In this document: positions 10,412 through 34,446 of the stretch, one piece after another
Position numbering within the stretch: the first letter of the stretch is position 1
Layout of the letters: the number at the start of each line of letters is the position of its first letter
NCBI RefSeq assembly: GCF_011806455.1
Contig: NZ_JAATOT010000001.1
Span: forward strand, 186,001 to 250,000
From: Celeribacter sp. HF31
Lineage (GTDB): Bacteria; Pseudomonadota; Alphaproteobacteria; Rhodobacterales; Rhodobacteraceae
Reading direction: 5' to 3'
Length of the DNA stretch: 64,000 nucleotides
Translations under genes and position numbers: made by a program
Notes under the pieces: generated by a model
What the model saw: the letters and a program-made list of their open reading frames with translations, nothing else
What the model was told of the DNA's origin: nothing
Databases searched by the model: none

Positions 10412-10440
10412 GGTGAAATTCCTCCGGTATAGGGGCCGCC

Positions 10441-11088: not shown

Positions 11089-11091
11089 GTC

Positions 11092-11790: not shown

Positions 11791-11821
11791 AGGGTTTGTC
11801 CTTTTTGCGTTTCTTTGGGAG

Positions 11822-14451: not shown

Positions 14452-14941
14452 AGCGCGCGTCTCCGAAAATCTGGCTCACGGAGACCACGGCCCAGAGGAC
14501 CATGGAGGCGATGCCGGGAATGTAGAAGGGCCAGATCGGCCAGCCGAGCACACCGGCTTCGGCGGCGTCAGAGCGGGATTCGAGCATCCCAAAGACCATC
14601 CAATAGGCCAGAAACAGCGCCACTGCGGCCGTCAAAGTGAGCCACATGTGGTCCAAAACGCGTTTCACCGGCATCGGCGCATTGGCGACGAAAAGATCGA
14701 CGGCGACATGGCCGCGCGAGGCCTGCGTGTAGGGGAAAAACATCAATGCCGCGCCGGAAATGGCGAGCTGGACGAAATCTTCGTAGCCCGGAAGGCCGGA
14801 GACGTCCTGGCCAAACAGGCCCATGAACCGATCAAGAATAAAGGCGCCAGTGTTGGTGGTGGTGACCATCACGATGACAAAGAGGATCGCGCCTCCAAGC
14901 ATAGCGAATATGTCTGCCAGACGCGTCACATGAGCGTGCAT
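14444..14941 (-). CDS. TRAP transporter small permease (DctQ type)
   Basis: This 165-residue protein has four predicted membrane helices and the DctQ pattern FPYTQASRGHVAVDLFV between helices two and three. It pairs with the overlapping large permease and with the binding protein encoded 84 bases upstream. No function separate from that complex is expected. Confidence 0.9.
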   Translation of the reverse strand: MHAHVTRLADIFAMLGGAILFVIVMVTTTNTGAFILDRFMGLFGQDVSGLPGYEDFVQLAISGAALMFFPYTQASRGHVAVDLFVANAPMPVKRVLDHMWLTLTAAVALFLAYWMVFGMLESRSDAAEAGVLGWPIWPFYIPGIASMVLWAVVSVSQIFGDARYA

Positions 14942-15025
14942 AGCATGCCTCCCGGTTGGGTGCGTTTCGTTTTGGATGAGCGGCGGGGTCGGCCCGCCAC
15001 TCTGGTTTTCGGGTATTCGAAGAGA

Positions 15026-16075
15026 TTATTCGCCGTGTGCGGCCGCGACAGCCGCGCGGGCCTGCTCCACAAGCGCGGCACCGTCGATGCCTTTTTCAGA
15101 GACTTCATCGACCCAGCGGGCCACGACCTCTTCGCTCACCGCGTTGAATTTCGCGGCTTCTTCGTCAGAGAACACATGGCGGGTGATGCCCGCGCCATCG
15201 AGCGCACCGATGCCGGCCTCTTCAAAGCCTTCCCACATCGCGCCGATCTCGGCTGCGACGTTTTCGCGGGAGTTGGCGTCGATCACGGCCTTCAGATCGT
15301 CGGGCAGGTCCTCGTAGACGTCCTTGTTCATCGCCACCATGAAAACGGCGGTGCCGAAACGGTCGCCATCCGGCAGCTCGGCGGTGTATTTGTCGAGTTC
15401 CTGCAATTTCAGCGCCGGGACGATCTCATAGGTGGTCATCGCGCCGTCGATCACGCCTTTCGCCATGGCCTCGGGCACGGCAGGCACGGGAAGGCTTACG
15501 GGCTCCGCGCCCATGCCTTCGATCAGCCAGGCCCCGGTGCGCGACGGCGTGCGCAGTTTCATGCCTGCGACGTCCTCAAATGTGGTGACTTCCTTGTTGC
15601 CAGAATGGATCAGGTTGCCGTCATTGGCGTGCAGGAACAGGATGTGAATGTCCTCGAAATCCTCGGCCAACATGTCCATCGAGGCGTTCAGCGCGATGGT
15701 CGTGTCGGTGGCAGAGCCTTTGTGCACGGTGGGCAGTTCGAACACTTCGGTGCGCGGGAACACGCCCGGCGTGTAGCCCAAAAGCGTCCAGACGATGTCC
15801 GCCGTGCCGTCGCGCACCTGGTTATAGAGCTCGCCCGGTTTGCCGCCCATCGACATGGCGGGGTAGATCTGAACCTCGATGCGTCCGTCGCTGTCGTCCA
15901 TGACCTTCTGCGCCCAGGGCTCCAACATCACCTTATGGGCGTTGGCCACCGGCGGCAGGAAGTGGTGCATGATCAGGGTGACGTCCTGCGCGAAGGCGGA
16001 TGTGGCGGTCGCGATGCTGGCGGCGGCAATGGTGCCGAGCAGCTTGGCGCGGGTGAATTTCGCCCGTATGGACAT
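15026..16075 (-). CDS. TRAP transporter substrate-binding protein (DctP type)
   Basis: This 349-residue protein starts at the ATG at 16075, after GGAGGAG; the longer frame upstream lacks a signal. The Sec signal is TIAAASIATATSAFA. The DctP fold follows, with the conserved LRTPSRTGAWLIEGMGAEPV carrying the arginine that salt-bridges a carboxylate ligand, and AKGVIDGAMTTYEIVP. The ligand is probably an aromatic carboxylate given the operon. It is the first gene of the minus-strand operon, divergent from the MarR gene. Confidence 0.92.
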   Translation of the reverse strand: MSIRAKFTRAKLLGTIAAASIATATSAFAQDVTLIMHHFLPPVANAHKVMLEPWAQKVMDDSDGRIEVQIYPAMSMGGKPGELYNQVRDGTADIVWTLLGYTPGVFPRTEVFELPTVHKGSATDTTIALNASMDMLAEDFEDIHILFLHANDGNLIHSGNKEVTTFEDVAGMKLRTPSRTGAWLIEGMGAEPVSLPVPAVPEAMAKGVIDGAMTTYEIVPALKLQELDKYTAELPDGDRFGTAVFMVAMNKDVYEDLPDDLKAVIDANSRENVAAEIGAMWEGFEEAGIGALDGAGITRHVFSDEEAAKFNAVSEEVVARWVDEVSEKGIDGAALVEQARAAVAAAHGE

Positions 16076-16135
16076 GTGAGCTCCTCCGAATTTTATCGCA
16101 ATTTTCTGGCGCACTCCCGTTGCGCCCTGAATAGT

Positions 16136-16180
16136 TGGTATACTTACCATTGATCTGAGTCAATTCCGTAAGCATACTTA
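16136..16180. promoter_or_regulatory. Pair of related dyads, candidate MarR operators
   Basis: TGGTA-TACT-TACCA (16136-16149) and TAAG-CATA-CTTA (16169-16180) both contain ATACTTA. Their centres are 32 bases apart, about three helical turns. They lie between the divergent dctP operon and the MarR gene, a typical position for autoregulated MarR sites. Confidence 0.5.
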
Positions 16181-16251: not shown

Positions 16252-16722
16252 ATGGCTCTTGAGATTCACAACATGGCCGGACATCTGATTCGCAGATTGA
16301 ATCAGATTTCGATGTCCGTGTTTCAGGAGCGGATGAAGGCCCAGGGGCAGACCATGACCTCGGTGCAATTCGCGGCGATGAATGCGGTGCACGCCAATCC
16401 GGGTATCGATCAGGCGCGGCTGGCGGGGATCATCGCTTATGATCGCGCGACGATTGGCGGTGTCATCGACCGGCTGGAGAGCAAGGGGCTGATGGTGCGT
16501 AAGGTCTGTGAGCATGACCGACGCGCGCGTTTGGTGCATCTGACGCCCGATGGCGAGGCGCTGTTGGATGCGCTGATCCCCGTGGTGCGCGGGTTTCAGG
16601 ACGATATCCTCTCTGGGCTGTCGGACGAGGAGCGGGGCGAATTCCTGCGCCTCGCGGCCAAGGCGGCGGATGGTGGCAACCACCTCAGCCGTGCGCCCCT
16701 GATTCTCGGCAAAAAGCCCTGA
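16252..16722 (+). CDS. MarR-family regulator, likely of the gentisate/TRAP operon
   Basis: This 156-residue protein has a winged-helix domain: TSVQFAAMNAVHANPGIDQARLAG, then DRATIGGVIDRLESKGLM and the wing EHDRRARLVHLTPDG. A GGGAAC ribosome site precedes the ATG. Divergent orientation relative to the TRAP/gentisate operon suggests it represses that operon and itself until an aromatic ligand binds. The effector is not readable from sequence. Confidence 0.88.
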   Translation: MALEIHNMAGHLIRRLNQISMSVFQERMKAQGQTMTSVQFAAMNAVHANPGIDQARLAGIIAYDRATIGGVIDRLESKGLMVRKVCEHDRRARLVHLTPDGEALLDALIPVVRGFQDDILSGLSDEERGEFLRLAAKAADGGNHLSRAPLILGKKP

Positions 16723-16870: not shown

Positions 16871-16897
16871 TTAATTGTTCATTGACATAACAATTAA
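16871..16897. promoter_or_regulatory. Operator dyad enclosing a -35 element, upstream of the phenylpropanoid operon
   Basis: TTAATTGTT (16871-16879) and AACAATTAA (16889-16897) are exact inverted repeats separated by CATTGACAT. The TTGACA hexamer (16882-16887) lies in that spacer and matches the -35 consensus. CATGGT at 16905-16910 is a weak -10 at 17-base spacing. Protein bound to both arms would cover the -35, as expected for a MarR repressor. Confidence 0.65.
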
Positions 16898-16933
16898 TCC
16901 TCTGCATGGTTTTCTCAAACGGGAGGAGACATC

Positions 16934-17698
16934 ATGGAGATCAAAGGGCATGTCGCCGTTGTGACGGGTGCTGCCAGCGGGCTGGGCTTTGCCACGGCAA
17001 AACGCCTCGCCGAGGCGGGCGCCACAGTGGCCATTCTCGATCTGTCGGGGGAGGCGGCAGCCAAGGCAGCCGCTGAGATCGGCGGCACAGGCTATGCGGT
17101 GGATGTCAGCGATCCGGCGGCGGTCGAGGCGGCATTTGCGCAGATCCAAGGTGATCTGGGCACGCCCCGTATCGTGGTCTCCTGCGCGGGCATCGGCACG
17201 GCGGGGCGCATCCTGCCGCGGGACGGATCGCTCACCATCGACACCTTCGCCAAGGCGCTGAACGTCAACCTTCTGGGCACTTATGCCGTGATGAACATCG
17301 CGGCGCGCGCCATGGCCGCTGCCGATCCCATCGACGCGGACGGGGCACGCGGCGTGATCATCAACACCTCCTCGGTGGCGTTTGAGGACGGCCAAATCGG
17401 GCAAGCGGCCTATTCCGCCTCGAAAGGCGGCGTGGCCTCGATGACGCTCCCGGCCGCACGCGAACTTGCCCGCTTTGGCATCCGAGTCATGGCCATCGCG
17501 CCGGGGCTTTTCGAGACCGCGATGAGCGCAGGCCTGCCGGATGATATTCGCGCCGACATTCTCAAAAACGTGCCGTACCCGTCCCGCATGGGCGACCCGG
17601 ACGAATATGCCCGCCTCGCGCAGGCCATCGTTGAAAACCCGATGCTGAACGGGACGGTTATTCGCCTCGACGCCGCAGCCCGCATGCCGATCAAATAA
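16934..17698 (+). CDS. SDR-family 3-hydroxyacyl-CoA dehydrogenase
   Basis: This 254-residue short-chain dehydrogenase has the NAD-binding TGAASGLG motif near residues 12-19 and an aspartate after the second strand (AILDLSG) that favours NAD+. The catalytic set is NTSSVAF with YSASK. It resembles type-2 3-hydroxyacyl-CoA dehydrogenases. In this operon it is predicted to oxidise 3-hydroxy-3-arylpropanoyl-CoA to the 3-keto thioester, as proposed for PhdD and CouN. It is the first gene after the operator at 16871. Confidence 0.87.
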   Translation: MEIKGHVAVVTGAASGLGFATAKRLAEAGATVAILDLSGEAAAKAAAEIGGTGYAVDVSDPAAVEAAFAQIQGDLGTPRIVVSCAGIGTAGRILPRDGSLTIDTFAKALNVNLLGTYAVMNIAARAMAAADPIDADGARGVIINTSSVAFEDGQIGQAAYSASKGGVASMTLPAARELARFGIRVMAIAPGLFETAMSAGLPDDIRADILKNVPYPSRMGDPDEYARLAQAIVENPMLNGTVIRLDAAARMPIK

Positions 17699-17710
17699 GA
17701 AGAAAAGCCA

Positions 17711-18478
17711 ATGACCAGCGAAATCTTGAAAATCGACATCGAGGGGCCGATCGCCACTCTGACCATGAACCGCCCCGGCAAGCGCAACGCCATGTGCGAT
17801 GAGCTTTTGGACGCCATCGACGCGTTCTTTTCCGCGCCGCCCGAAGGTGTGCGAGTTGTCATCATGACGGGCACCGAGGGGCATTATTGCTCCGGCCTCG
17901 ATCTCTCCGAACATGTCGCCCGCAATGCCGAGGGCACCATGCGTCACTCGCGCAATTGGCATGGTGTCATGGATAAAATCCAGTTCGGCGGCCTTCCGGT
18001 GATCTCCGCCATGTATGGCGCTGTCATCGGCGGAGGGCTTGAAATGGCCACCGCCACCCATGTGCGAATCTCGGAACCGTCGACGATTTTCCAGCTGCCC
18101 GAAGGCATGCGCGGCATCTTTGTCGGCGGCGGGGCCACCGTGCGTGTGGGGCGCATTCTGGGCGCGGATCGCATGTGCGAAATGATGCTCACGGGGCGCA
18201 AATACAATTCGGATGAAGGTCTGGCGCTTGGTCTCACCCATTATGCCGTGGGCGAGGGCGAAGCGCTGGCGCTGGCGCAGAAACTCGCGGCCAAGATCGC
18301 CAAGAACGCCACGCTGTCGAACTACATGATGATCCAGGCGATCAGCCGGATCGAGGATATGTCGAAAGCCGACGGATTGTTCATGGAAAGCATGTGCGCC
18401 GCCGTCTCGCAGACCAGTGAAGATGCCGAGGAGGGTCTCAAGGCCTTCTTGGAAAAGCGCGTGCCTGTCTTCCGTTAA
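17711..18478 (+). CDS. Enoyl-CoA hydratase/crotonase, likely hydroxycinnamoyl-CoA hydratase
   Basis: This 255-residue crotonase has the oxyanion-hole segments HYCSGLDLSEH and GAVIGGGLEMATATHVRIS. In standard hydratases two glutamates sit after GA.GGG and in the next helix; here the PEGMRGIFVGGGATVRV segment supplies a candidate acid. It is shorter than classical feruloyl-CoA hydratase/lyases (about 275-290 residues). The neighbouring dehydrogenase implies that it hydrates without cleaving. Function as lyase or hydratase is inferred from context. Confidence 0.83.
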   Translation: MTSEILKIDIEGPIATLTMNRPGKRNAMCDELLDAIDAFFSAPPEGVRVVIMTGTEGHYCSGLDLSEHVARNAEGTMRHSRNWHGVMDKIQFGGLPVISAMYGAVIGGGLEMATATHVRISEPSTIFQLPEGMRGIFVGGGATVRVGRILGADRMCEMMLTGRKYNSDEGLALGLTHYAVGEGEALALAQKLAAKIAKNATLSNYMMIQAISRIEDMSKADGLFMESMCAAVSQTSEDAEEGLKAFLEKRVPVFR

Positions 18479-18588
18479 CGGGCTCTCGCAATGCGTATTG
18501 AGGCGGGCTGCAGAGGAGGCGGCCCGCATCCAATCACAACATAGCCCGCGACAAACCGGGCATCCGTCATGATTTGGGAGGATTACAC

Positions 18589-19629
18589 ATGACAACTATG
18601 ACACGCCGTATGGCCATGGCCACGATGGGCGCCGCCCTTGCGACCCCCGCATTTCTCAAAAAAGCCCACGCCGCCGAAGTGACGCTGCGCGTCGCGCATT
18701 TTCTGCCGGGTGTGGCGCCGATGCAGACCCGGTTCTTCGATGTCTGGGCCAAGGAAATCTCTGACGCCTCCGATGGCGCCATCGAGATGCAGATGTTCCC
18801 CTCGATGCAGCTGGGCGGCAAACCGCCCCAGCTCGCCGATCAGGCGCGCCAAGGCATTGCCGACATCTCATGGACCCTGCCGGTCTACACGCCGGACCGT
18901 TTCCCGGTGGCCGAAACCATGGCGCTGCCCTTCATGGTGACCAATGCCGAAAAGACCTCTGTCGCGATGCATACGCTGATGGAGGAATTCGGCCAGAAGG
19001 AATATCGCGGGCTGAAACCCTTGGCCTTCCACACCCATGATGGCGGCAAGTTCCACACCCGGGGTCAGAAAATCTCGACCGCCGAGGACATCAAAGGCCT
19101 CAAACTGCGCGCGCCGAACCAAGCGACCGGCAAGATGTTGGAGATCATGGGTGCCGAGACTGTGTTCTTCCCGGTGACCGAGATGGTCGTGGGGCTTTCG
19201 AATGGCGTGATCGACGGCTGTTGCCTGCCCTATGAGGTGGTGCCGGCCTTCAAGCTTCAGGAGCTGACCTCTGTGACCAACGAACCCGAAGCGGGCGCGC
19301 GGGGTCTCTATTGCAACACCTTCGCGCTGGTGATGAACGAGCGCAAATACGAGGGTCTCTCTGACGATCTGCGCAAGGTGATCGACGATCATTCCGGCGC
19401 CGATCTGTCCCGTCGCCTCGGCGCGCAATTCGATGAGTTCGAGGCCTTCGGGCGTGGCGTCGTCGAAAAGCAGGGCAATGAGATCCACACCATTCCGGCG
19501 GCGGAAATCGCCAAATGGCGCGAGATGGCGACGCCTGTCTATGACGAATGGATCGGCAAGTTGAACGATGCGGGTCTCGACGGCGCGGCCATCGTGGCGC
19601 GTGCCAACGATCTTTTGGACGCCGGGTGA
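18589..19629 (+). CDS. TRAP transporter substrate-binding protein (DctP type), Tat-like signal
   Basis: This 346-residue protein starts at the ATG at 18589, seven bases after GGGAGG. Its leader MTTMTRRMAMATMG has a twin arginine and ends in AHAAE, so Tat export is possible. The DctP core shows LKLRAPNQATGKMLEIMGAE and LSNGVIDGCCLPYEVVP. It is distinct in sequence from the binding protein at 15026. Location inside the phenylpropanoid operon suggests capture of hydroxycinnamates, as shown for TarP and CouP-type proteins. Confidence 0.9.
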   Translation: MTTMTRRMAMATMGAALATPAFLKKAHAAEVTLRVAHFLPGVAPMQTRFFDVWAKEISDASDGAIEMQMFPSMQLGGKPPQLADQARQGIADISWTLPVYTPDRFPVAETMALPFMVTNAEKTSVAMHTLMEEFGQKEYRGLKPLAFHTHDGGKFHTRGQKISTAEDIKGLKLRAPNQATGKMLEIMGAETVFFPVTEMVVGLSNGVIDGCCLPYEVVPAFKLQELTSVTNEPEAGARGLYCNTFALVMNERKYEGLSDDLRKVIDDHSGADLSRRLGAQFDEFEAFGRGVVEKQGNEIHTIPAAEIAKWREMATPVYDEWIGKLNDAGLDGAAIVARANDLLDAG

Positions 19630-19635
19630 GTCCTC

Positions 19636-20190
19636 ATGGCCGAGCGGCTTAACACAGACACTGGGCAGGGAGACACTGGGCAGGGGGATCACACCCCCCT
19701 GTTCCGCGCGCTCCGGGCGATTTGCCTTGGCTCTGCGGGGCTTGGCGGCGCGGTGATTTTCGCGGCCTCTCTGGCCGTCACCCTGTCGGTGGTGATGCGC
19801 AACCTTGGTTTGGGCGGCATTCGCGGGGATTTCGAACTGGTGGAGCTGGCCTGCGCGGCCTGTGCCTCGCTCTTCTTGCCTCTGTGCCAATTCAACAAAG
19901 GGCACGTCATGGTCGATCTCTTCACGCTTTGGCTGAAACCCGTCACCCAGCGCCGCTTTGACGGCGTCTGGACAATGATTTTCGCCGTCTGTTGGGCGTT
20001 TCTGACCTGGCGGCTCGCAGTGGGACTTTTGGAAATGCATGACTATGGCGACCGCACCATGTTGCTGCGCGCGCCCGTGTGGTGGGTCTATTTGCCCGCG
20101 CTTTTGGGCACCGGGCTTTCAGCCATCGTGGCCTTTTTGCAGGGCCTGCCGATGATCAGCCCCGCCTTTCGCGGTCTGGAGGTGCGCTGA
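19636..20190 (+). CDS. TRAP transporter small permease (DctQ type)
   Basis: This 184-residue protein has an N-terminal hydrophilic extension of about 30 residues and then four membrane helices. The DctQ motif FLPLCQFNKGHVMVDLFTLW lies between the second and third. The TGA overlaps the ATG of the large permease by one base, so translation is coupled. It belongs to the same complex as the proteins at 18589 and 20190. Confidence 0.9.
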   Translation: MAERLNTDTGQGDTGQGDHTPLFRALRAICLGSAGLGGAVIFAASLAVTLSVVMRNLGLGGIRGDFELVELACAACASLFLPLCQFNKGHVMVDLFTLWLKPVTQRRFDGVWTMIFAVCWAFLTWRLAVGLLEMHDYGDRTMLLRAPVWWVYLPALLGTGLSAIVAFLQGLPMISPAFRGLEVR

Positions 20191-21512
20191 TGGAACCGAT
20201 GACGATTGCTATTCTGATGGTCGTGGGGCTTTTGATCCTGATCTTTGCCCGGATGCCGATTGCTTTGGGCATGGGTCTGGTCGGCGCCGTGGGCTATGTG
20301 ACGCTCGCCTCGCCCTATGCGCTCATGGCCTATTTCAACACGGCCTGGGTCGATAAATTCATGTCCTATGAGCTGGCCATCGTGCCTTTGTTCATCCTCA
20401 TGGGACATCTCGCGACGCGCTCCGGCATCTCTGCCGCGATCTTTGCCGCGTCCAATGCCTGGATCGGCCACCTGCGCGGCGGTCTGGCGATGGCCTCTGT
20501 CGCGGGCTGTGCGATGTTCGGGTCCATTTCCGGCTCGTCTCTGGCGACCGCCTCGACCATGGCCCGCGTGGCCCTGCCGGAGATGCGTAAACATGGCTAT
20601 TCCGGCGCGTTGGCTTCCGGCTCTTTGGCTGCGGGCGGCACATTGGGCATTCTCATTCCGCCCTCCGTGGTGCTCATCATCTACGCGCTTTTGACCGAGC
20701 AGAACATCGTCAAGCTGTTCCTGGCGGCCACCATTCCCGGCATTCTGGCTGTGATCGGCTTCTGTATCGCCATCGCGATCTATGTCCGGCTCTACCCCTC
20801 AGAAGGCCCGACCCATCAACCCGCCAGCTTCGCGCAGCGTCTGAAAGCCTTGAAAGACATCTGGCATGTGGTCGTGATCTTCGTCATCGTGCTGGGCGGC
20901 ATCTATGGCGGGTTCTTCACGCCCGCGGAAGGCGCCTCCGTCGGGGTGATCCTGATGCTGGTCGCGGGGCTTTTGACCCGTGGTCTCGACGGGCGGGCCA
21001 TCCTTGATTGCCTGATCGACACGGCGGGTTCGACCGCGATGATTTTCGCCATCGTCTTTGGTGCCGACATTTTCAACGTCGCGCTGGCGCTGTCGCGCAT
21101 GCCCTCCGAAGTGGCCGATTACTTCTCTGCCGCCAACGTCGCGCCGATGGTGGTGCTTATGGGGATCATTGTTTTCTACCTCGTCATGGGCTGCCTCATG
21201 GACAGTCTCTCGATGATCTTGCTCACCGTGCCGGTGTTCTTCCCCACGATCATGGCGCTGGATTTCGGTCTCATGCCGGAACAGCAAGCCATGTGGTTCG
21301 GCATCATCTCTTTGGTGGTGGTCGAAATGGGGCTGATCACGCCGCCTGTGGGGATGAACCTCTTTGTCATCTCCTCGATGGCGAAGGACATCCCGACCAG
21401 CCAGATTTTCCGCGGCACAACGCCTTTCATCATCGCGGAATTCTTCCGCATCGCCATTCTGGTCAGCTTCCCGGTGCTGAGCTATTGGCTGGTGGATTTG
21501 GTGGCCAACTGA
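20190..21512 (+). CDS. TRAP transporter large permease (DctM type)
   Basis: This 440-residue protein starts MEPMTIAILMVVGLL at the ATG overlapping the DctQ stop; the longer upstream frame is not part of it. DctM landmarks are VPLFILMGHLATRSG, GSISGSSLATASTMARVALPE and GGTLGILIPPSVVLIIYA. It completes the second TRAP system of the window, adjacent to the CoA ligase genes. Confidence 0.93.
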   Translation: MEPMTIAILMVVGLLILIFARMPIALGMGLVGAVGYVTLASPYALMAYFNTAWVDKFMSYELAIVPLFILMGHLATRSGISAAIFAASNAWIGHLRGGLAMASVAGCAMFGSISGSSLATASTMARVALPEMRKHGYSGALASGSLAAGGTLGILIPPSVVLIIYALLTEQNIVKLFLAATIPGILAVIGFCIAIAIYVRLYPSEGPTHQPASFAQRLKALKDIWHVVVIFVIVLGGIYGGFFTPAEGASVGVILMLVAGLLTRGLDGRAILDCLIDTAGSTAMIFAIVFGADIFNVALALSRMPSEVADYFSAANVAPMVVLMGIIVFYLVMGCLMDSLSMILLTVPVFFPTIMALDFGLMPEQQAMWFGIISLVVVEMGLITPPVGMNLFVISSMAKDIPTSQIFRGTTPFIIAEFFRIAILVSFPVLSYWLVDLVAN

Positions 21513-21522
21513 GGAAGAGACG

Positions 21523-21972
21523 ATGAGCAAGTGCGACAAAGATACCGAAATCACGGACCAGAACCTGCGCCAATTCGTGGGCTACACCATGAAGCGTGCC
21601 TTTCTCATGGTGCGCGAGGATCTGGCGCGGGTGCTGGAGCCTCTGGGGCTTCGGATGACGTCTTTTTCCGCCCTCGCGATCATCAAGGAAAACCCCGACA
21701 TCTCCCAGAGCCGCCTCGCCGTGGCGCTGCATATCGAGCGCTCCGGTGTGGTGGTTTTGGTGGATGAGTTGGAAAGCGCCGACCTGATCGAACGCGGACG
21801 CGTCGAAGGCGACCGGCGGCAATATGCCCTGCGCACCACCGCGCTGGGCGACAAGAAATGGCGCGAAGCAGAGCGGGCAGTCGCGGCCCATGAGGAGGCT
21901 CTGTTTGCTGCGCTGAGCACAGAAGAACGCACCACGCTTCGGACCCTTTTGGGCCGGGTCGGGAGGAAATAG
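21523..21972 (+). CDS. MarR-family regulator (PhdR/CouR/FerR-like by context)
   Basis: This 149-residue winged-helix protein shows MTSFSALAIIKENPDISQSRLA, then IERSGVVVLVDELESADLIERG and the wing EGDRRQYALRTT. MarR repressors of phenylpropanoid pathways (PhdR, CouR, FerC/FerR) respond to hydroxycinnamoyl-CoA thioesters made by the adjacent ligase. Encoded inside the operon, it is the best candidate to bind the dyad at 16871. Ligand and target remain inferred. Confidence 0.87.
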   Translation: MSKCDKDTEITDQNLRQFVGYTMKRAFLMVREDLARVLEPLGLRMTSFSALAIIKENPDISQSRLAVALHIERSGVVVLVDELESADLIERGRVEGDRRQYALRTTALGDKKWREAERAVAAHEEALFAALSTEERTTLRTLLGRVGRK

Positions 21973-22001
21973 CCGCATCCGATCGGCTAAGGGAGGAACG
22001 C

Positions 22002-23819
22002 ATGAAAGATCAAACGACGGGGCTGACGCTTGCACCGCATTCGGTGCGCATGGACCGCAAGAGCACGGAAGAGATTATCCTGACTTCGGCCCTGCCGCTC
22101 GATCCGGTGGTCGAGCACACCGGGGTCTGGTTGGAAAAATGGGCCCTTGAGCGTCCGGATACGACCTATCTCGCCGAACGCTCCGGTGCGGGCTGGCGCG
22201 AGTTGGGCTATGCGGAGGTTTTGGAGCGCGTCAAAGCCATCGCGGCCTCTCTGGCTGCGCGCGGCCTCAACGAGTCGACGCCGATCCTGATCATGTCCGG
22301 CAACTCCGTCGATCACGCTTTGCTGTCGTTTGGCGCGCAATGGGCGGGGGTGCCCACTGTGCCCTTGGCCGAACAATATTCCCTCATCGAAGAGGCCCAT
22401 TTCCGCCTGCAATATGCGATAGGCAAGACGAAACCGAAAATGGCCTTCGTCGATGACGCCGCGCGCTATGCCAAGGCTCTGAGCCTGTCGGATTTCGAGG
22501 GGATCGAAATCGTGGCCTCACTGCCCGCGGGCGCGCCACGCCCCGTCACGCCTTTCGCTGAGCTCCTGAAAGGCGACGCGGGCGTCGACCTTGCATCCGT
22601 TCATGCGGGGGTCGGGCCGGACACGCTGGCGAAAATCCTGTTCACCTCTGGCTCCAGTTCCGACCCAAAGGGCGTGATGACCACACAGCGCATGATGTGC
22701 GCCAACCAAAGCCAGATGTCGTCGGTGCTGCCCTTCATGAAAGAGCGCCCGCAGCGCATCGTCGATTGGCTGCCGTGGAACCACGTTTTTGGCGGCTCGC
22801 ACAACGTCAACATGATGCTGATGCACGGCGGTTCTTTCTACATTGATAATGGCAAGCCGACGAAGGCCCTATTTCAGCACACGATTGAGAACGTGATCGA
22901 AAAGGCCGGCACCGCCGCCTTCAACGTGCCTGTCGGTTTTTCGATGCTGGTGCATGAGATGGAGCACAATCAGGCCCTCAAAGAAGCCTATTTCAAAGAC
23001 CTCGACATGCTGTTCTATGCGGGCGCGTCCCTGCCGCAGGACATCTGGACCCGGCTCGAAGAGATGGCGATGGAAGTGCGCGGGCGTCTGCCCCTGATGA
23101 TCTCAAGCTGGGGCCTCACCGAGACTGCGCCGGCCAACGTCATGGTGCACGAACATATCGGCCGCTCAGGTGTCATCGGCGTGCCTCTGCCGGGAACTGA
23201 GATCAAGCTTTTGCCCGATGACGACATGCGCTGTGAAATCCGCGTCAAAGGCCCGAATGTCATGCCTGGCTACCTGCATGACCCGGAGAAAACGGCGGAG
23301 GCCTTTGACGAAGGCGGCTTTTTCATCACCGGCGATGCGGTGAAGTTTCTCGACAAGGACGATCCGAACCGGGGCCTTGTCTTTGATGGTCGCGTCTCTG
23401 AGGATTTCAAACTGCTGACCGGCACCTGGGTCCAGGCGGGCAAACTGCGTCTTGATGCGCTGGAGGCTCTGCGCGGGCTGGTGCTCGATGTGGTGATCTG
23501 CGGTCACGACCGGGGCGAGATCGGCCTCTTCGTCTTCCCGCGCCCGGATCACGTGCATGACGACAACACCTCCGAGGGCGCGGTGATCGACGATCATCTT
23601 CAGGCCGAAATCCACCATGTCTTGCGTAAAATGGCCCGCGCCGCCTCTGGCTCCGCCAAACGCATCGCCCGCGCCATCATCCTGGCCGAACCGCCTTCTC
23701 TCAAAGATGGCGAGGTCACCGACAAAGGGTCTTTGAACACCCGCAAAATCATCACCCGCCGCGCCGATCTTCTGGAGCGTCTCTACGACAACGAAGATCC
23801 GGCCCTGATCCGAGTGTAA
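22002..23819 (+). CDS. Feruloyl-CoA-synthetase-like aryl-CoA ligase
   Basis: This 605-residue ANL-superfamily adenylate-forming ligase carries the phosphate loop LFTSGSSSDPKGV (near residue 216), WNHVFGGSHN, SSWGLTETAP and the hinge DGRVSEDFKLLTGTWV. The whole matches the feruloyl-CoA synthetase subgroup. It should activate ferulate, p-coumarate or related hydroxycinnamates with ATP and CoA. The lysine in KGSLNTRKI near the end is the probable adenylation residue. A GGGAGG ribosome site precedes the ATG. Confidence 0.9.
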   Translation: MKDQTTGLTLAPHSVRMDRKSTEEIILTSALPLDPVVEHTGVWLEKWALERPDTTYLAERSGAGWRELGYAEVLERVKAIAASLAARGLNESTPILIMSGNSVDHALLSFGAQWAGVPTVPLAEQYSLIEEAHFRLQYAIGKTKPKMAFVDDAARYAKALSLSDFEGIEIVASLPAGAPRPVTPFAELLKGDAGVDLASVHAGVGPDTLAKILFTSGSSSDPKGVMTTQRMMCANQSQMSSVLPFMKERPQRIVDWLPWNHVFGGSHNVNMMLMHGGSFYIDNGKPTKALFQHTIENVIEKAGTAAFNVPVGFSMLVHEMEHNQALKEAYFKDLDMLFYAGASLPQDIWTRLEEMAMEVRGRLPLMISSWGLTETAPANVMVHEHIGRSGVIGVPLPGTEIKLLPDDDMRCEIRVKGPNVMPGYLHDPEKTAEAFDEGGFFITGDAVKFLDKDDPNRGLVFDGRVSEDFKLLTGTWVQAGKLRLDALEALRGLVLDVVICGHDRGEIGLFVFPRPDHVHDDNTSEGAVIDDHLQAEIHHVLRKMARAASGSAKRIARAIILAEPPSLKDGEVTDKGSLNTRKIITRRADLLERLYDNEDPALIRV

Positions 23820-23829
23820 GGAATTGAAT

Positions 23830-24705
23830 ATGGTAGATTTTTCTAACGTCCGCGCGATTGATTTTCACACCCATGCCGAGGAGGCCTGTGGCTGTCATCA
23901 CGATGACGGCTATGACGATTTGCAATCCGCGATGGCGAAATATTTCAACGCGCCGTGGTCCCATCCGCCCACGATTGACCAAACCGCCGCGCATTACCGC
24001 GAGAAAAACATCGCTGCGGTGATTTTCCCGGTCGATGCCGAGCGTGAGACGGGCTATCGCCGCTACGACAATTACGAGGTCGCTGACGCCGCCGCAAAGC
24101 ACTCCGACATCCTCATCCCCTTCGCCTCCATCGATCCGGCGAAAGGCAAATTGGGTGCCCGTGAGGCGCGCGATCTGGTGGAAAATCACGGCATTCAGGG
24201 CTTTAAATTCCACCCGACGATGCAGGGGTTTTACCCCAACGACCGCAACGCCTATGTGCTCTATGAGGCCATCGCCGAGGCCGGCAAGCCAGCGCTGTTT
24301 CACACCGGCCAGACCGGGGTCGGGTCGGGGATGAAGGGCGGCAATGGCATGCGTCTCAAGTACTCGAACCCGATGTATATGGACGATCTGGCGGTGGATT
24401 TTCCCGACATGCCGATCATCCTCGCGCACCCGTCGTTTCCGTGGCAGGAAGAGGCTTTGTCGGTCGCGACCCACAAGCCCAATGTCTACATCGACCTCTC
24501 CGGCTGGTCGCCGAAATACTTCCCGCCGATCCTGGTGCGTTACGCGAATACTTTGTTGAAAAACAAGATGTTGTTCGGCTCCGACTGGCCGATGATCGCG
24601 CCTGAAAAGTGGCTCGACGCCTTTGACAAAGCGGAGTTCCGCGACGAGGTGCGGCCTTTGATTTTGAAGGAGAACGCGATGCGGCTTCTGGGGGTGACCG
24701 AATGA
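23830..24705 (+). CDS. Amidohydrolase-2 family protein, putative 3-oxo-3-arylpropanoyl-CoA hydrolase
   Basis: This 291-residue TIM-barrel protein starts at the ATG at 23830 after AAGGA. The metal-site motif IDFHTHAEEACGCHHDD is near the start. HPTMQGFYPNDR, LAHPSFPWQEEAL and FGSDWPMI follow; the last aspartate is typical of the amidohydrolase-2 family. In phd/cou clusters a gene of this family accompanies the ligase, hydratase and dehydrogenase and is proposed to cleave the beta-keto thioester hydrolytically, replacing thiolase. No thiolase gene lies in this operon. Decarboxylase or lactonase activity is an alternative. Confidence 0.75.
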   Translation: MVDFSNVRAIDFHTHAEEACGCHHDDGYDDLQSAMAKYFNAPWSHPPTIDQTAAHYREKNIAAVIFPVDAERETGYRRYDNYEVADAAAKHSDILIPFASIDPAKGKLGAREARDLVENHGIQGFKFHPTMQGFYPNDRNAYVLYEAIAEAGKPALFHTGQTGVGSGMKGGNGMRLKYSNPMYMDDLAVDFPDMPIILAHPSFPWQEEALSVATHKPNVYIDLSGWSPKYFPPILVRYANTLLKNKMLFGSDWPMIAPEKWLDAFDKAEFRDEVRPLILKENAMRLLGVTE

Positions 24706-24904
24706 CGCCGGGTGGTGGGAGCGTGCGGTTGGCTGCCCGTGGGATGGCGAACACCCTTGACGTCGGGGCGCTTTATCTTGGCCAAATCCGAGCGACGTTC
24801 ATGCGCAGGTCAACATCAACAAAATCGCCAGCCCGCCCGAACGGGCAGGCGATCGCGCGGCGGCCTGCGGCCTTTGTTCCGCGCGTGAAGACAGGAGATC
24901 GGAC

Positions 24905-26455
24905 ATGACGCCGTTCAAAGCGCCGCTCGATGACATTCTCTTTTGCCTGCGCAACGTGGCCGGAGCGGAGCGTTTGCCTGAGTGGGACGAGGAGCTTGCC
25001 GAGGGCATCCTTGGCCATTTCGCCGCCTTCGCCGAGGGCGTCATCGCGCCTTTGGACGAGCCGGGCGACGCGCAGGGCTGCACACTTTCCGACGGCCGTG
25101 TCACCATGCCTGACGGTTTTAAAGAGGCCTACACTCAGCTCGCTGAGGGGGGGTGGCAAGGCCTCACCGCGCCCGAGGATTTCGGTGGTATGGGCCAGAA
25201 CGCGCTTTTGGCGGCGGGCGTCTCAGAAATTTTCTCCGGCGCCAACCACGCGATGCAGATGGTCTGCAACCTCGTGCCGGGCGCCATCTCGACGCTGATG
25301 AAATTCGGCTCTGACGCGCAAAAACAGTATTGGATTCCGCGTCTTGCGGCGGGCGAGACGCTCTCCACAATGTGCCTGACCGAACCGGGCGCGGGCTCCG
25401 ATCTCTCTCGTATCCGCACCAAGGCCACGCCTTCGGGGGGCAGCTGGCGGATCGAGGGAGAGAAAATTTTCATCTCTGGCGGCGATCAGGATATGTCCGA
25501 AGACGTGCTGCACCTCGTGCTTGCCCGCACTGGCGGCGACGGGGTCAAAGGCCTGTCTTTGTTCCTTTGTCCCTCTGAGGTTCATGGCGCGCGGAACGCG
25601 GTGACGGTGACACGGATTGAGGAAAAGCTGGGCCTCCATGCCTCGCCGACCTGTCAGCTGGCTTTCGATGGCGCGGAGGCCGAGTTGATCGGCGAAGAGG
25701 GCGCGGGGCTGATGGCGATGTTCACCATGATGAACCACGCCCGCCTCGATGTGTCCCTGCAAGGCGTGGCTCATGCGTCGCGCGCGCATCACATCGCGGT
25801 GGACTATGCCGCCGAGCGCAAACAGGGACGTAATGCGGACGGCTCCGAAGCCGTGCTCGCCGATCACCCGGATGTGCAGCGTATGCTGGACGCGCAAAAA
25901 GCCCTCGCACTCGGCGCCCGTGCGATGACCTATCTCACCATGGCCGAACTGACCCTCGGTCAGAATCGGGCTTTGGTGGATTTTCTCACACCGATCTGCA
26001 AGGTGTTCTGTACAGAAGCGGGGATACGTGCCGCCGATCTCGGCATTCAGGTGCTTGGCGGCTACGGCTATCTGACCGAGTACCGCGTGTCTCAGACCTG
26101 GCGGGATGCGCGGATCACTTCGATCTACGAGGGGGCAAATGGCATCCATGCGGTGGCGCTTGCGACCCGTGGTCTGCGGGCGCCGGAGGGACCGGACGCC
26201 TTTGCGCAACTGATCGAAGAACTGGCGTATGGCGATGCCGACTGCCTCACGCTTTTGTCCGATTGGCAAGGCGCGCGCGCAGGTATGGCGGCACAGGCGG
26301 TCGAGAAAGCCCATGATTTCATGGCGTTGACCGGCGAACTTCTGTTCCGTGCTGTTTGGTGCAAACTCGCCGCGACGGGCGATGCGGAAATGGTTCGTCT
26401 GGCAAAACGCGTGGCGCGCCGTCCTCTGCCGGTGCGGTTGCCGCTCAGCGCTTAA
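24905..26455 (+). CDS. Acyl-CoA dehydrogenase, likely aryl-propanoyl-CoA dehydrogenase
   Basis: This 516-residue protein shows the FAD/substrate motifs TMCLTEPGAGSDLSRIRTKA and IFISGGDQDMSED, GIQVLGGYGYLTEYRV, and the catalytic glutamate in RITSIYEGANGIHA. It resembles the long PhdB/AcdA-type dehydrogenases. It probably desaturates phenylpropanoyl-CoA to cinnamoyl-CoA, widening the pathway to dihydro acids. It follows a 199-base gap after the amidohydrolase and overlaps the convergent AraC gene by four bases. Confidence 0.87.
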   Translation: MTPFKAPLDDILFCLRNVAGAERLPEWDEELAEGILGHFAAFAEGVIAPLDEPGDAQGCTLSDGRVTMPDGFKEAYTQLAEGGWQGLTAPEDFGGMGQNALLAAGVSEIFSGANHAMQMVCNLVPGAISTLMKFGSDAQKQYWIPRLAAGETLSTMCLTEPGAGSDLSRIRTKATPSGGSWRIEGEKIFISGGDQDMSEDVLHLVLARTGGDGVKGLSLFLCPSEVHGARNAVTVTRIEEKLGLHASPTCQLAFDGAEAELIGEEGAGLMAMFTMMNHARLDVSLQGVAHASRAHHIAVDYAAERKQGRNADGSEAVLADHPDVQRMLDAQKALALGARAMTYLTMAELTLGQNRALVDFLTPICKVFCTEAGIRAADLGIQVLGGYGYLTEYRVSQTWRDARITSIYEGANGIHAVALATRGLRAPEGPDAFAQLIEELAYGDADCLTLLSDWQGARAGMAAQAVEKAHDFMALTGELLFRAVWCKLAATGDAEMVRLAKRVARRPLPVRLPLSA

Positions 26456-27306
26456 AGATCTCCCGCGACCCGGGCGCGATAGGCCGTGGGGGTCTCCCCC
26501 ATGCGCGCCCGGAAGCGGCGGGAGAAATACGGCGGGTCCGTGTAACCCAGCCGATAGCCCACCTCCGCCACCGGCAGCCGCGTAAAGGCGAGGTGGCGAC
26601 AGGCCTCTGTCATCACCGCGGTTTCGAGATATTCGGTCAGTGTCACCCCGCTGTCGCGCCGCACGATCCGGTTTAAATGACCGGCGGTCATATGCAGCGC
26701 GCGGGCATAATCCGCAGCACTCCAGCCGTCCGTCATGTGATCGGCGATCAAGGCGTCCAATTGTTGCATCTGCCGCGTCTGATCTTGCTCCGGCGTGTCG
26801 GTCTGGACGCTCTCTTCTGCCAATGTTGTCAAAAGCGCATGGGATAGGGCGACAAGCTTTTGTGCGCGAAATATACCAGATTTGTCATGGAAGCGCGCAA
26901 TCTGAGACAAGAGCCCGCTGGCCGTTTCGGAGAGGGGCGCGTGATGCGTGCCGCTGAGCCATGCCGTCAGAGGTTGAGATTGCGGGCCGAGACGCTGCAC
27001 CACGGGAGAGGGGAGCGACAGCACAAACCCTTCGGTGCCCTTGTCAAAGGTAAAGCCATGCACGATTTTCGGCGGAACATAAAGAAATTCGCCATTTTTT
27101 AGAGTGGTTTCCTCCCCGTCCAGCGTGACCTGCGCAAAGCCTGTTTCAATGTGAAACACCTGCGCCATCTGATGATGTCGATGCGGAGAGATTTTCCAAC
27201 CGTGCAGCTGCGCCCGATCAAAAATGCGCTCGCAATGGATCACGTCCGGGAAGGCGCTTGTTTCGCCAAAGAGGTTGAAGGCGGGGATCTGGCTGGTCTC
27301 ACTCAT
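26452..27306 (-). CDS. AraC-family regulator, probable pobA activator (PobR-like)
   Basis: This 284-residue protein starts MSETSQIPAFNLFG at the ATG at 27306; an upstream in-frame start is less likely. The N-terminal cupin sensor shows PHRHHQMAQVFHIETGFA, and the C-terminal double helix-turn-helix ends with GYTDPPYFSRRFRARMGETP. It is divergent from pobA over an 88-base gap, the classic arrangement for the 4-hydroxybenzoate-responsive activator PobR. No clear operator was found in the gap. Confidence 0.85.
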   Translation of the reverse strand: MSETSQIPAFNLFGETSAFPDVIHCERIFDRAQLHGWKISPHRHHQMAQVFHIETGFAQVTLDGEETTLKNGEFLYVPPKIVHGFTFDKGTEGFVLSLPSPVVQRLGPQSQPLTAWLSGTHHAPLSETASGLLSQIARFHDKSGIFRAQKLVALSHALLTTLAEESVQTDTPEQDQTRQMQQLDALIADHMTDGWSAADYARALHMTAGHLNRIVRRDSGVTLTEYLETAVMTEACRHLAFTRLPVAEVGYRLGYTDPPYFSRRFRARMGETPTAYRARVAGDL

Positions 27307-27394
27307 GCCGGAAAAGTACCATTTATTGCCGGGCGGGTCCATTCCGATGTCGCGCCGTGCGTTTTAAAGTCTTCTCAAATTGGAGGAGACGCAT

Positions 27395-28573
27395 ATGACC
27401 ACTTTGACCACCCAGGTCGCCATCATCGGCGGCGGCCCATCCGGCCTGCTTTTGTCGCAGCTTTTGAACAAAGCGGGGATCGAGACCGTCATTCTCGAAC
27501 GATCCACCCGAGATCACGTTTTGGCCCGTATCCGGGCAGGCATCCTTGAGTGGGGCACTGTCGAATTGCTCCGCGAGGCGGGTGTCGGCGCGCGAATGGA
27601 GGCTGAGGGTATCCCGCATGACGGCTGTTACCTGACCGACGAGGAGTTGATGGTGCACATCGACTTCAAAGATCTGACCGGCAAGCAGGTCATGGTTTAC
27701 GGCCAGACGGAGGTGACAACGGATTTGTACAATGCGCAGGACGCCATGGGCACGACCGTGCTGCATGAGGTGTCCGACGTGGAAATTCACGATCTCGATC
27801 AGGCGAAATCCTATGTCGAGTTCACCCATGAGGGCACGCGCAAGCGGCTTGAGTGCCTTTATGTGGCGGGCTGCGATGGCTTCCACGGCGTGTCGCGCAA
27901 AACCATTCCCGAAGAGAAGCGTCGGGAGTTCGAACGCGTCTATCCCTTTGGCTGGCTTGGGATTCTGTCGGAAACCCCGCCGGTGCATGACGAGTTGATC
28001 TATTCGAATTCCCGCCACGGCTTCGCGCTTGCCTCGATGCGCAACGAAAACCTCGTGCGCTATTATGTGCAGGTGCCGCTCACGGATAAGGTCGAGGATT
28101 GGTCGGATCAACGCTTTTGGGATGAGTTCTCGCGGCGTATTCCGTCGGAGGCCGCGCGCCGTCTCGTCACCGGGCCGTCGATTGAAAAAAGTATCGCGCC
28201 GCTGCGCAGTTTCGTGTCCGAGCCGCTGCGTTGGGGCAATCTGTTTTTGGTGGGTGACAGCGCCCATATCGTGCCGCCGACGGGGGCGAAGGGGCTGAAC
28301 CTTGCCGCCTCAGACGTGTACTATCTCTACACGGCGCTGATCGACGCGGTGACGGGGGACAGCAAGACCGGCGTGGACGAATATTCCGCCCGCGCGCTGG
28401 AGCGGATTTGGAAAGCGATGCGGTTCAGCTGGCAGATGACCACCATGCTGCACCGGTTCGAGGACGAGGACGCTTTTGCAGAGCAGATGCGCAAGGCGAC
28501 GCTGACCCATCTGGCGACGTCCGAGACCGCGCGGCGTGATCTGGCAGAGAATTACATCGGTCTGCCGTTCTAA
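27395..28573 (+). CDS. pobA: 4-Hydroxybenzoate 3-monooxygenase
   Basis: This 392-residue class A flavoprotein is the usual PobA length. It shows the N-terminal AIIGGGPSGLLLSQLLNKAG, then LARIRAGILEWGTVELLREAG with residues near the flavin, and the FAD motif LFLVGDSAHIVPPTGAKGLN. It converts 4-hydroxybenzoate to protocatechuate with NADPH and O2, feeding the pca genes next to it. GGAGGAG lies before the ATG at 27395. Confidence 0.96.
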   Translation: MTTLTTQVAIIGGGPSGLLLSQLLNKAGIETVILERSTRDHVLARIRAGILEWGTVELLREAGVGARMEAEGIPHDGCYLTDEELMVHIDFKDLTGKQVMVYGQTEVTTDLYNAQDAMGTTVLHEVSDVEIHDLDQAKSYVEFTHEGTRKRLECLYVAGCDGFHGVSRKTIPEEKRREFERVYPFGWLGILSETPPVHDELIYSNSRHGFALASMRNENLVRYYVQVPLTDKVEDWSDQRFWDEFSRRIPSEAARRLVTGPSIEKSIAPLRSFVSEPLRWGNLFLVGDSAHIVPPTGAKGLNLAASDVYYLYTALIDAVTGDSKTGVDEYSARALERIWKAMRFSWQMTTMLHRFEDEDAFAEQMRKATLTHLATSETARRDLAENYIGLPF

Positions 28574-28591: not shown

Positions 28592-29647
28592 TTACGCCGG
28601 GTCGCCCAATCTTTGAATGTTTTGAACAAGTTGAATGGCCATGGAGAGCGAGCGCCCCGTGGCCATCAGCATCTGCGGCAGCACCATCCACTCAAGGCTC
28701 CAAGCCGTGCCGGAGCGTTCCTGTTCATGCACGACCGCATGGTGCATGGCGCTGACTTGCGTGGCGTTATAGCGCGCCAGAGTGACCAAAAGCTCGGCTG
28801 CGACCGGATTTTGTTTGTGCGGCATGGCGGAGGAGCCCCCCGCGCCGGAAATCGAAACGCATTCAATGCCTTGCTGCGCCATAAGCGCAATATCCTGGCC
28901 GATTTTCCCCAAAGATCCGGTCACAAGCGAGAGAAACGAAGCATAGCCCGCGATCCCGTGCCGCATGGTCTGCCAGCTCTTGTCCGTGGGCGCGAGACCC
29001 AAGGTTTTCGCCACCTCAGAGACGACAAAATCACCCTTGTCGGCAAGCGCTTTGCGATCCCCGGAGGCACCGCCAACTTGTACTTTTTCAACATCGGCGC
29101 GTTTTTGATCCAGTGTCTTGAGATGATCCGAAATCGGCAGACGCCAGGCCAGAACACGGTCGCGCACGGTGATCTCGGTCGCCGCCTGCATCCGGGTGCG
29201 GCCCATCAGTGGGGCGTCGCCAAAGCGGTCGTCAAGCGCCTTGAGATGGGTTTCCAGCTCCATCAATCGCCCGGCGATCAGGAAAGACGCTTCGCGCAAT
29301 GCGAGCACCAGCGCCGTGTCCACCACATCCTGAGAGGTGGCGCCTTTATGCACGGCTTCCGCCGGTGCGAGGGCTTTCAACTGTGTCACCAGACGCGGAA
29401 TTGGCACGCCGTCTTGCGCCATGCCTGCGGCAATATCGGCCAGATCAATCTCAGCCGTCTCAATCGCAACCGCCGCCTCTTCGGCCTGTGTCGCCTCGAA
29501 CAACCCGGCCTTGCCACAGGCTCGCGACCACGCCGCCTCAAACGCCAACATATGCGCCATCTGGCGCTCGGGCGCGAGGACCGCGGCCATCTCAGGGTCG
29601 CCAAACAGACCGGACAGCCAGGGGTGATCGAAGACGCTCAGGCTCAT
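28592..29647 (-). CDS. pcaB: 3-Carboxy-cis,cis-muconate cycloisomerase
   Basis: This 351-residue fumarase/aspartase-superfamily protein has the signature GGSSAMPHKQNPV with the catalytic serine loop and GATSQDVVDTALVLAL. It converts 3-carboxymuconate to 4-carboxymuconolactone. It is the last gene of the pcaDCHGB operon, convergent with pobA, and is somewhat shorter than the roughly 450-residue PcaB of Pseudomonas, as is common in alphaproteobacteria. A short hairpin separates it from pcaG. Confidence 0.94.
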   Translation of the reverse strand: MSLSVFDHPWLSGLFGDPEMAAVLAPERQMAHMLAFEAAWSRACGKAGLFEATQAEEAAVAIETAEIDLADIAAGMAQDGVPIPRLVTQLKALAPAEAVHKGATSQDVVDTALVLALREASFLIAGRLMELETHLKALDDRFGDAPLMGRTRMQAATEITVRDRVLAWRLPISDHLKTLDQKRADVEKVQVGGASGDRKALADKGDFVVSEVAKTLGLAPTDKSWQTMRHGIAGYASFLSLVTGSLGKIGQDIALMAQQGIECVSISGAGGSSAMPHKQNPVAAELLVTLARYNATQVSAMHHAVVHEQERSGTAWSLEWMVLPQMLMATGRSLSMAIQLVQNIQRLGDPA

Positions 29648-29669
29648 TTTTCTTCCTTTGTCAGACCAA

Positions 29670-29694
29670 GAGGGGCGACCGAAGCCGCCCCCTC
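29670..29694 (-). other. Intercistronic hairpin between pcaG and pcaB
   Basis: GAGGGGCG (29670-29677) pairs with the CGCCCC-CTC segment ending at 29694 around an eight-base loop, with one bulged C. No long T-run follows on the minus strand, so it may adjust pcaB expression or mRNA stability rather than stop transcription fully. Confidence 0.4.
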
Positions 29695-29713
29695 CATACC
29701 GTCAGGTTTTCGC

Positions 29714-30319: not shown

Positions 30320-30321
30320 GA

Positions 30322-32233: not shown

Positions 32234-32292
32234 TCTTCTCTTCCCTTTTCGTCAGATTGCCATAAGTGTTTCGCTGTGAAAAATACAATATG

Positions 32293-32309: not shown

Positions 32310-32311
32310 AA

Positions 32312-33229: not shown

Positions 33230-33234
33230 AAGCG

Positions 33235-34437
<1,203 letters not shown>

Positions 34438-34446
34438 AGGTCCTCC

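Follow-up and report, generated by a model that had tools for sequence, protein, structure and literature searches.

Several bacteria have been described as shortening the side chain of hydroxycinnamates through coenzyme A (CoA) thioesters. The alphaproteobacterium Agrobacterium fabrum is reported to do so by β-oxidative deacetylation, and its SpG8-1b region (Atu1415-1422) is described as encoding a feruloyl-CoA synthase, an enoyl-CoA hydratase, a phenylhydroxypropionyl-CoA dehydrogenase, an acid-yielding C-C cleaving enzyme and the MarR repressor HcaR (PMC7797058, PMC10458429). In the actinobacterium Rhodococcus jostii RHA1 the last step of the cou pathway, leading to the aromatic acid, is given to an amidohydrolase-superfamily enzyme (CouO) (PMC4737184), and a published table for Corynebacterium glutamicum names NCgl0282 a 4-hydroxyphenyl-β-ketoacyl-CoA hydrolase (PMC7260847). 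The same hydrolase step is assigned to HpeF of Rhodococcus rhodochrous GD02 (PMC9618137), and in Rhodopseudomonas palustris a tripartite ATP-independent periplasmic (TRAP) binding protein for coumarate, ferulate, caffeate and cinnamate (CouPSTU/TarPQM) is encoded with coumarate genes (PMC3610893). Here we describe a nine-gene operon of Celeribacter sp. HF31 (Rhodobacterales) that resembles each of these in part, located in a 64,000-nucleotide stretch of its genome (hereafter the window; contig NZ_JAATOT010000001.1, positions 186,001 to 250,000). The chemistry is known from other bacteria, and the operon looks like a form of it that is common within one order of marine bacteria.

The nine genes occupy positions 16934 to 26455 of the + strand, every frame is open and catalytic residues are retained throughout the enzymes. 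An earlier reading made from the letters alone (the sequence-only reading) had named all nine on one strand and each is borne out by family matches. It also had the strand and the end right but began the span at 16871, which falls at a palindrome upstream of the first gene. The features are as follows.

16872..16896, +: operator candidate before the first gene, palindrome TAATTGTT-N9-AACAATTA, with a TTGACA -35-like box (16882-16887) in the spacer
16934..17698, +: short-chain dehydrogenase (SDR), predicted 3-hydroxy-3-arylpropanoyl-CoA dehydrogenase (adh_short, 6.5e-44; S147, Y160 and K164 in 56/56 aligned)
17711..18478, +: crotonase, predicted aryl-enoyl-CoA hydratase, not hydratase-lyase (PRK08150, 3e-100; E111 and E131 in 75/75 aligned)
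18589..19629, +: TRAP solute-binding protein DctP (1.4e-42; Arg173, counted from a fragment beginning at 18592, in 31/31)
19636..20190, +: TRAP small permease DctQ (4.4e-18)
20190..21512, +: TRAP large permease DctM (2.9e-82)
21523..21972, +: MarR regulator, predicted CouR/HcaR-like repressor (family match)
22002..23819, +: feruloyl-CoA-synthetase-type ligase, AMP-binding (PRK12582, 1.7e-195, at 651 bits under that model's own cut-off of 777; one match in its own genome at E <= 1e-10)
23830..24705, +: amidohydrolase-2 protein (AH), predicted 3-oxo-3-arylpropanoyl-CoA hydrolase of CouO/HpeF type from residues, contexts and tree (Amidohydro_2, 2.6e-51; one match in its own genome at E <= 1e-40)
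24905..26455, +: acyl-CoA dehydrogenase, predicted entry for saturated 3-arylpropanoates (family match; catalytic Glu409 in 55/55)

The starts of DctP, DctM and AH are the likelier ones, read from the frame list. The metal-site residues H15, H158, H200 and D252 of AH are kept in 104/104 proteins and H13 in 99% of rows. We take the residues listed for AH, SDR, crotonase and acyl-CoA dehydrogenase to be catalytic from general knowledge of their families, and the arginine of DctP was picked by a motif that we assume to mark carboxylate binding. With three components and this conserved, predicted carboxylate-binding arginine, the TRAP set would be of the TarPQM type of aromatic-acid transporters.

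We consider it well founded that this is an inducible operon by which (hydroxy)cinnamates, and probably 3-arylpropanoates as well, are taken up and degraded in their side chain by an aldehyde-free route, and we infer every reaction, the substrates and the ligand of the regulator as follows. The TRAP transporter would import (hydroxy)cinnamates and the ligase would make the aryl-enoyl-CoA, or an arylpropanoyl-CoA that the acyl-CoA dehydrogenase would then desaturate, so that saturated side chains are most likely admitted too. The crotonase would hydrate the aryl-enoyl-CoA, the SDR would oxidise the 3-hydroxyl and AH would split the resulting 3-oxo-3-arylpropanoyl-CoA by hydrolysis (retro-Claisen), giving acetyl-CoA and a free benzoate. 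PobA and the pca genes to the right would take 4-hydroxybenzoate and a gentisate block to the left could take 3-hydroxybenzoate, while the MarR protein would probably repress from a single palindrome and release it on binding aryl-enoyl-CoA. Ligase, two-glutamate hydratase, SDR and MarR, with AH as the putative C-C cleaving enzyme, make up the gene set of a β-oxidative hydroxycinnamate cluster. R. palustris, unlike what we propose here, presumably uses a non-β-oxidative route, and the roseobacter Sagittula stellata E-37, studied by Frank et al. in 2018, is said to have hydroxycinnamate genes and to need its fcs genes and a TRAP transporter.

The last A. fabrum enzyme, Atu1421, is termed a β-keto-thiolase and is compared with AH by description only; among the six enzymes listed in those reports there is neither a TRAP set nor an acyl-CoA dehydrogenase, and A. 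fabrum has a vanillate demethylase (PMC7797058, PMC10458429). The cou genes of RHA1 are likewise likened by published description rather than by sequence (PMC4737184), and the GD02 hpe pathway differs in that its hydroxyacetophenone substrate is described as entering by phosphorylation and carboxylation (PMC9618137).

Among 390 genomes of the order AH (sought at E <= 1e-40) occurs in 89, the ligase (E <= 1e-100) in 110 and both in 87. Of the 91 AH copies, 79 have a relative of this ligase no more than 8.5 kb away, so the gene order and linkage of the operon are not due to chance. The same gene order, which the sequence-only reading proposed looking for in related genomes, is found from the second TRAP set through pca in six Celeribacter loci (L033, L034, L035, L038, L039 and L041), with the gentisate enzymes falling beyond the ends of these stretches. 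Further comparison was made on a table of 79 loci, the window and 78 others, excluding 12 AH copies away from the ligase (nine of which were compared separately). A gene was scored as present when it passed a tblastn identity threshold within a stretch of 12.4-18 kb, centred on AH or, in loci lacking AH, roughly on the ligase. The acyl-CoA dehydrogenase is present in 50/79 AH loci and 5/23 AH-less loci; being optional, it does not define the set. The likeness to the phd and cou clusters drawn by the sequence-only reading stands for the amidohydrolase (CouO, PMC4737184; NCgl0282, PMC7260847).

Where AH is missing a thiolase is usually found in its place. In loci with both ligase and crotonase a thiolase was detected with two queries in 14/15 without AH versus 1/78 with AH (L205), or 2/78 if a weak PcaF-like match in L192 is added. 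Over all ligase loci, with any of four queries, the counts are 16/23 AH-less versus 2/79 AH loci. By genus, again over all ligase loci, they are 5/8 versus 1/43, the AH-less side of this last count having been scored with one extra query.

Relatives of AH also occur in a second kind of cluster. In Celeribacter sp. PS-C1 (L032; AH 99% identical) and as the second AH of another Celeribacter (L147) the gene lies in hpe-like clusters with a biotin carboxylase, a carboxyltransferase, a HAD phosphatase and an acetoacetate-CoA-ligase-like enzyme, and the same set accompanies AH in Tabrizicola (L081, beside PobA), Rhizobium leguminosarum (L129) and on a Pseudomonas putida plasmid (L132). The described GD02 hpe pathway has this gene set, its HpeF is 95% identical to CouO and its last intermediate is an aroylacetyl-CoA (PMC9618137). 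The intermediate common to the cinnamate and hpe routes is hydroxybenzoylacetyl-CoA. It is this sharing of contexts, together with the linkage to the ligase and the exchange with thiolase, that makes cleavage of 3-oxo-3-arylpropanoyl-CoA to the free aromatic acid and acetyl-CoA the most likely activity of AH. The copy at the end of the Celeribacter hpe-like clusters is almost the same protein as the AH in this genus's cinnamate operon, which is likely to reflect recent duplication. In the two Celeribacter hpe-like clusters we also observed two SDR genes and a PRK02399/Tm-1-like gene in the set linked with hydroxyacetophenone carboxylation.

A tree was built from 104 AH proteins, and on it the five copies in an hpe context, a label given for two or more hpe-type matches or for a BCCP match alone (L083), need four label changes, at least three of them forced by well-supported branches. 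This was a quick tree with long branches, supported by the Shimodaira-Hasegawa-like approximate likelihood ratio test (SH-aLRT) only, and three changes may equal one gain and two losses. Because the hpe-context copies are few and scattered it is likelier that the context was gained more often than lost, a point on which the tree itself cannot decide. A wider contig search considered the best 80 of at least 588 relatives among 592 stretches. Homologs on Rhodococcus plasmids have 57% and 54% identity, and in the public record of Rhizobium sp. Q54 the AH is annotated, by annotation only, as a 4-hydroxyphenyl-β-ketoacyl-CoA hydrolase and neighbours a dehydrogenase, a feruloyl-CoA synthase, a hydratase and a MarR gene. 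On the Q54 plasmid (L128) the hydroxycinnamate cluster, which has TRAP genes, directly adjoins a type I-C CRISPR-Cas locus, and on a plasmid of the haloarchaeon Haloferax (L133) a distant relative (40%) has an enoyl-CoA hydratase gene and paaABCDE as neighbours.

An inverted repeat over the predicted promoter is a trait of CouR/HcaR-type MarR repressors and one is present upstream of our operon. In RHA1 the CouR box is described as an inverted repeat overlapping the -35 box (PMC4737184). The core AATTGTT-N9-AACAATT is kept in 10/10 aligned upstream regions (the window and nine loci) despite diverging flanks, the outermost pair deviating in L036, and it is the only site in its own genome when up to one mismatch is allowed. 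Within the window alone a search at up to three mismatches gives one match against a chance expectation of 0.84, so it is the perfect match, together with conservation, that gives the palindrome its weight. A stricter pattern matches 14/256 loci, some genomes being counted twice, including one Sinorhizobium and one Ensifer locus. The MarR protein encoded at 21523-21972 would be the one that binds the palindrome at 16872-16896.

The operon is flanked by a gentisate block on the left and by pobA and a full pca set on the right.

9308..13042, -: gentisate block with gentisate 1,2-dioxygenase-like (280 of 442 bits, below cut-off), maleylacetoacetate/maleylpyruvate isomerase-like (MaiA, above cut-off) and fumarylacetoacetate hydrolase-like genes and a 3-hydroxybenzoate 6-monooxygenase (PRK08163, 583 bits, cut-off 459)
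13060..16150, -: second TRAP transporter (M, Q, P); P by family match, M by TIGR00786 at 258 bits, just under the cut-off of 268, Q by position and reading only, with no family match
16252..16722, +: second MarR gene, adjoining the divergent gentisate-side TRAP set (family match)
26452..27342, -: AraC regulator, PobR-like by position (all family matches under cut-off)
27380..28573, +: 4-hydroxybenzoate 3-monooxygenase PobA (TIGR02360, 637 bits, cut-off 539)
28592..35915, -: protocatechuate (β-ketoadipate) genes pcaB, pcaG, pcaH, pcaC, pcaD, pcaF, pcaJ and pcaI (G, H, C, D, I and J above cut-offs; B above one model's cut-off and under another's)
32312-33229, +: PcaQ-like gene amid the pca genes (under its cut-off)

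To the left of the gentisate block there is also a MauG-like di-haem cytochrome gene (7292-8437; MbnH family match under cut-off). Within the operon the genes for AH and the acyl-CoA dehydrogenase stand about 194 bp apart, and this spacer (24711-24904) is flanked by a 9-bp direct repeat, ATGACGCCG, the whole covering 24702-24913. In 8/10 aligned loci the two genes overlap stop to start with no insert, a similar spacer is found in C. neptunius (L039), and a 75% copy and shorter pieces occur elsewhere in the genome. The spacer looks like a small dispersed element with target duplication; it folds no better than shuffles (z 0.93).

Ring genes in the 79 AH loci comprise pob/pca genes in 16, gentisate-type genes in 21 (13 by a stricter rule), PRK08294-type monooxygenases in 9 and BoxB/BoxC in 7, with at least one of these types in 47/79, so the ring pattern served differs among relatives. 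For our genome p-coumarate, with ferulate, is the most likely substrate and m-coumarate a possible one. Ferulate is allowed by a VanA-type oxygenase encoded in the genome, and the absence of a BoxB match there argues against cinnamate through the box route. Tannase/feruloyl-esterase-type genes beside AH in L055, L057, L073, L075 and L112 are in keeping with ester-bound hydroxycinnamates, but among the 79 AH loci of the order only one (L234) has such a gene.

A doubtful but real alternative keeps the pathway and changes the main substrate to a meta-hydroxylated or other arylpropanoate, such as m-coumarate or 3-(3-hydroxyphenyl)propanoate, whose product 3-hydroxybenzoate would pass to the gentisate block. 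The 3-hydroxybenzoate 6-monooxygenase and gentisate genes adjoin the operon, gentisate-type genes are about as frequent near AH as pob/pca genes, and the PRK08294-type and box counts given above point the same way; however, the gentisate block faces the opposite direction with its own TRAP set and MarR gene, and in Celeribacter locus L040 the stretch examined contains the operon and pob/pca but lacks the TRAP genes of the gentisate side. That the operon instead serves methylthiopropanoate (in the manner of dmdBCD) or general acyl-CoA degradation we find barely credible. Ligase, acyl-CoA dehydrogenase and crotonase would fit, and the crotonase resembles the structures 4izb/4izc, which we take to be DmdD of Ruegeria, but the ligase is nearest to PRK12582, presumably a feruloyl-CoA-synthase-like family, with relatives annotated as feruloyl-CoA synthases, the SDR and AH would be unneeded and aromatic ring genes recur beside the operon.

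The remaining two alternatives reassign a single enzyme. If the crotonase were a hydratase-lyase its product would be vanillin or 4-hydroxybenzaldehyde. Ligase, crotonase and MarR are also described as the core of that non-β-oxidative route (PMC10458429), and aldehyde dehydrogenases occur near some AH loci (L181, L183). We hold this to be very improbable and rejected it, as it would leave the SDR and AH without a role, and as both catalytic glutamates are kept in all the aligned cluster crotonases, while a related hydratase-lyase above the family cut-off (L135) has glycine at the position of E111. The hydratase-lyase family NF006588 does not exceed its cut-off in our genome, where its best match (165.9 bits versus 276) lies at a locus other than the operon, and does so in 1/196 genomes of the order, with one more in a genome outside that sample (L151). 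Because the crotonase keeps both glutamates and the genome has no hydratase-lyase above cut-off, this cluster is unlikely to work by way of an aldehyde. The claim of the sequence-only reading that no aldehyde dehydrogenase is present holds for the cluster, the genome having been searched for hydratase-lyases only. It is quite improbable, too, that AH serves ring catabolism as a decarboxylase, hydratase or lactonase and leaves the C-C bond to be cut by a thiolase elsewhere in the genome. The predicted structure of AH (mean predicted local distance difference test score, pLDDT, 84.3, low at 164-176) has the fold of Amidohydro_2 proteins, and the closest solved folds, a measure of fold and not of function, include aromatic decarboxylases, ACMSD, LigJ and pyrone hydrolases; none of the chains listed by this fold search was named as CouO family, the closest being the uncharacterised 3irs at 24% identity. 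PcaF is moreover a thiolase encoded nearby. Against this, AH is accompanied by the ligase in 87 of the 89 genomes that have it and replaces the thiolase at the locus, and its hpe-like contexts have only the aroylacetyl-CoA step in common.

Several observations weigh against hydrolytic cleavage by AH in an aldehyde-free pathway. Two of the four thiolase queries were taken from AH-less loci, favouring matches there (of the others one came from an AH locus and one was the PcaF of the window), and the thiolase/AH counts were corrected for descent only to genus. The SDR is recognised in only 48/79 AH loci at the threshold used (31/79 without), AH copies lack any recognised partner in L067, L070, L074 and L110, and the HpeE and HpeF reactions are given as proposed in the GD02 report (PMC9618137). 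Neither is AH tied to an aldehyde-free locus everywhere, because in L078, L096, L151 and L154 it stands beside a hydratase-lyase, an aldehyde dehydrogenase and another ligase, and the AH-plus-ligase loci L181 and L183 have an aldehyde dehydrogenase with 63-67% likeness to that one. The link between box genes and thiolase is not strict either.

We rejected mutual exclusion of AH and hydratase-lyase on account of those four co-occurrences, which perhaps reflect hybrid or sequential use of both routes. A strict rule placing AH with free-acid ring genes and thiolase with box genes held only in part, since 7/79 AH loci have BoxB/BoxC, six of these seven being in one genus, and no thiolase was found in six AH-less box-gene loci (L150, L166, L167, L171, L176, L177); in L150 the gap from the ligase to the benzoate-CoA ligase has no thiolase-like frame on the operon strand. 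Seven other clusters (L148, L159, L162, L163, L164, L168, L174) read TRAP-SDR-crotonase-MarR-ligase-thiolase-benzoate-CoA-ligase-BoxC-BoxB and probably represent a route from cinnamate to benzoyl-CoA and the box pathway in one genus.

We hold tentatively, with slightly more doubt than belief, a joint picture in which AH is a portable last module. It would be the prevailing end of hydroxycinnamate side-chain degradation in Rhodobacterales, repeatedly moved into hydroxyacetophenone clusters and swapped for a β-ketothiolase in often box-bearing clusters, such that the last enzyme would set the form in which the ring is passed on, a free acid for PobA and gentisate or an aroyl-CoA for box. In this picture a single Celeribacter operon may supply a para as well as a meta ring outlet.

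The pathway type itself is already described, from A. fabrum (PMC7797058, PMC10458429) and Rhodococcus (PMC4737184), as is a TRAP binding protein for coumarate in R. palustris (PMC3610893). The contrast drawn by the sequence-only reading with a well-known proteobacterial route does not survive the A. fabrum reports, whereas its aldehyde-free, CoA-dependent retro-Claisen route joined to TRAP uptake in Rhodobacterales gains support by inference from the crotonase glutamates, the linkage of AH and the thiolase exchange. Among the papers listed by our literature search, which covered few subscription journals, none dealt with this hydrolase in Rhodobacterales. What is new here is the prevalence in the order (AH in 89/390 genomes, hydratase-lyase in 1/196), the way hydrolase and thiolase stand in for each other, the occurrence of AH in hpe-like clusters too and the operator candidate.

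A 2025 roseobacter paper presents coumaric and ferulic acid degradation in the clade as an open question (PMC12442348), and the cluster offers a concrete, testable answer in the form of a CoA route that would avoid the aldehyde and has a single ligase and a single hydrolase. The hydrolase/thiolase interchange provides a natural test of the matching of side-chain cleavage to ring degradation and would be useful for lignin valorisation. The organism itself, a marine bacterium, very probably uses the operon to take up cinnamic acids of plant origin and to trim their side chain in CoA steps, the last of them carried out by a special hydrolase.

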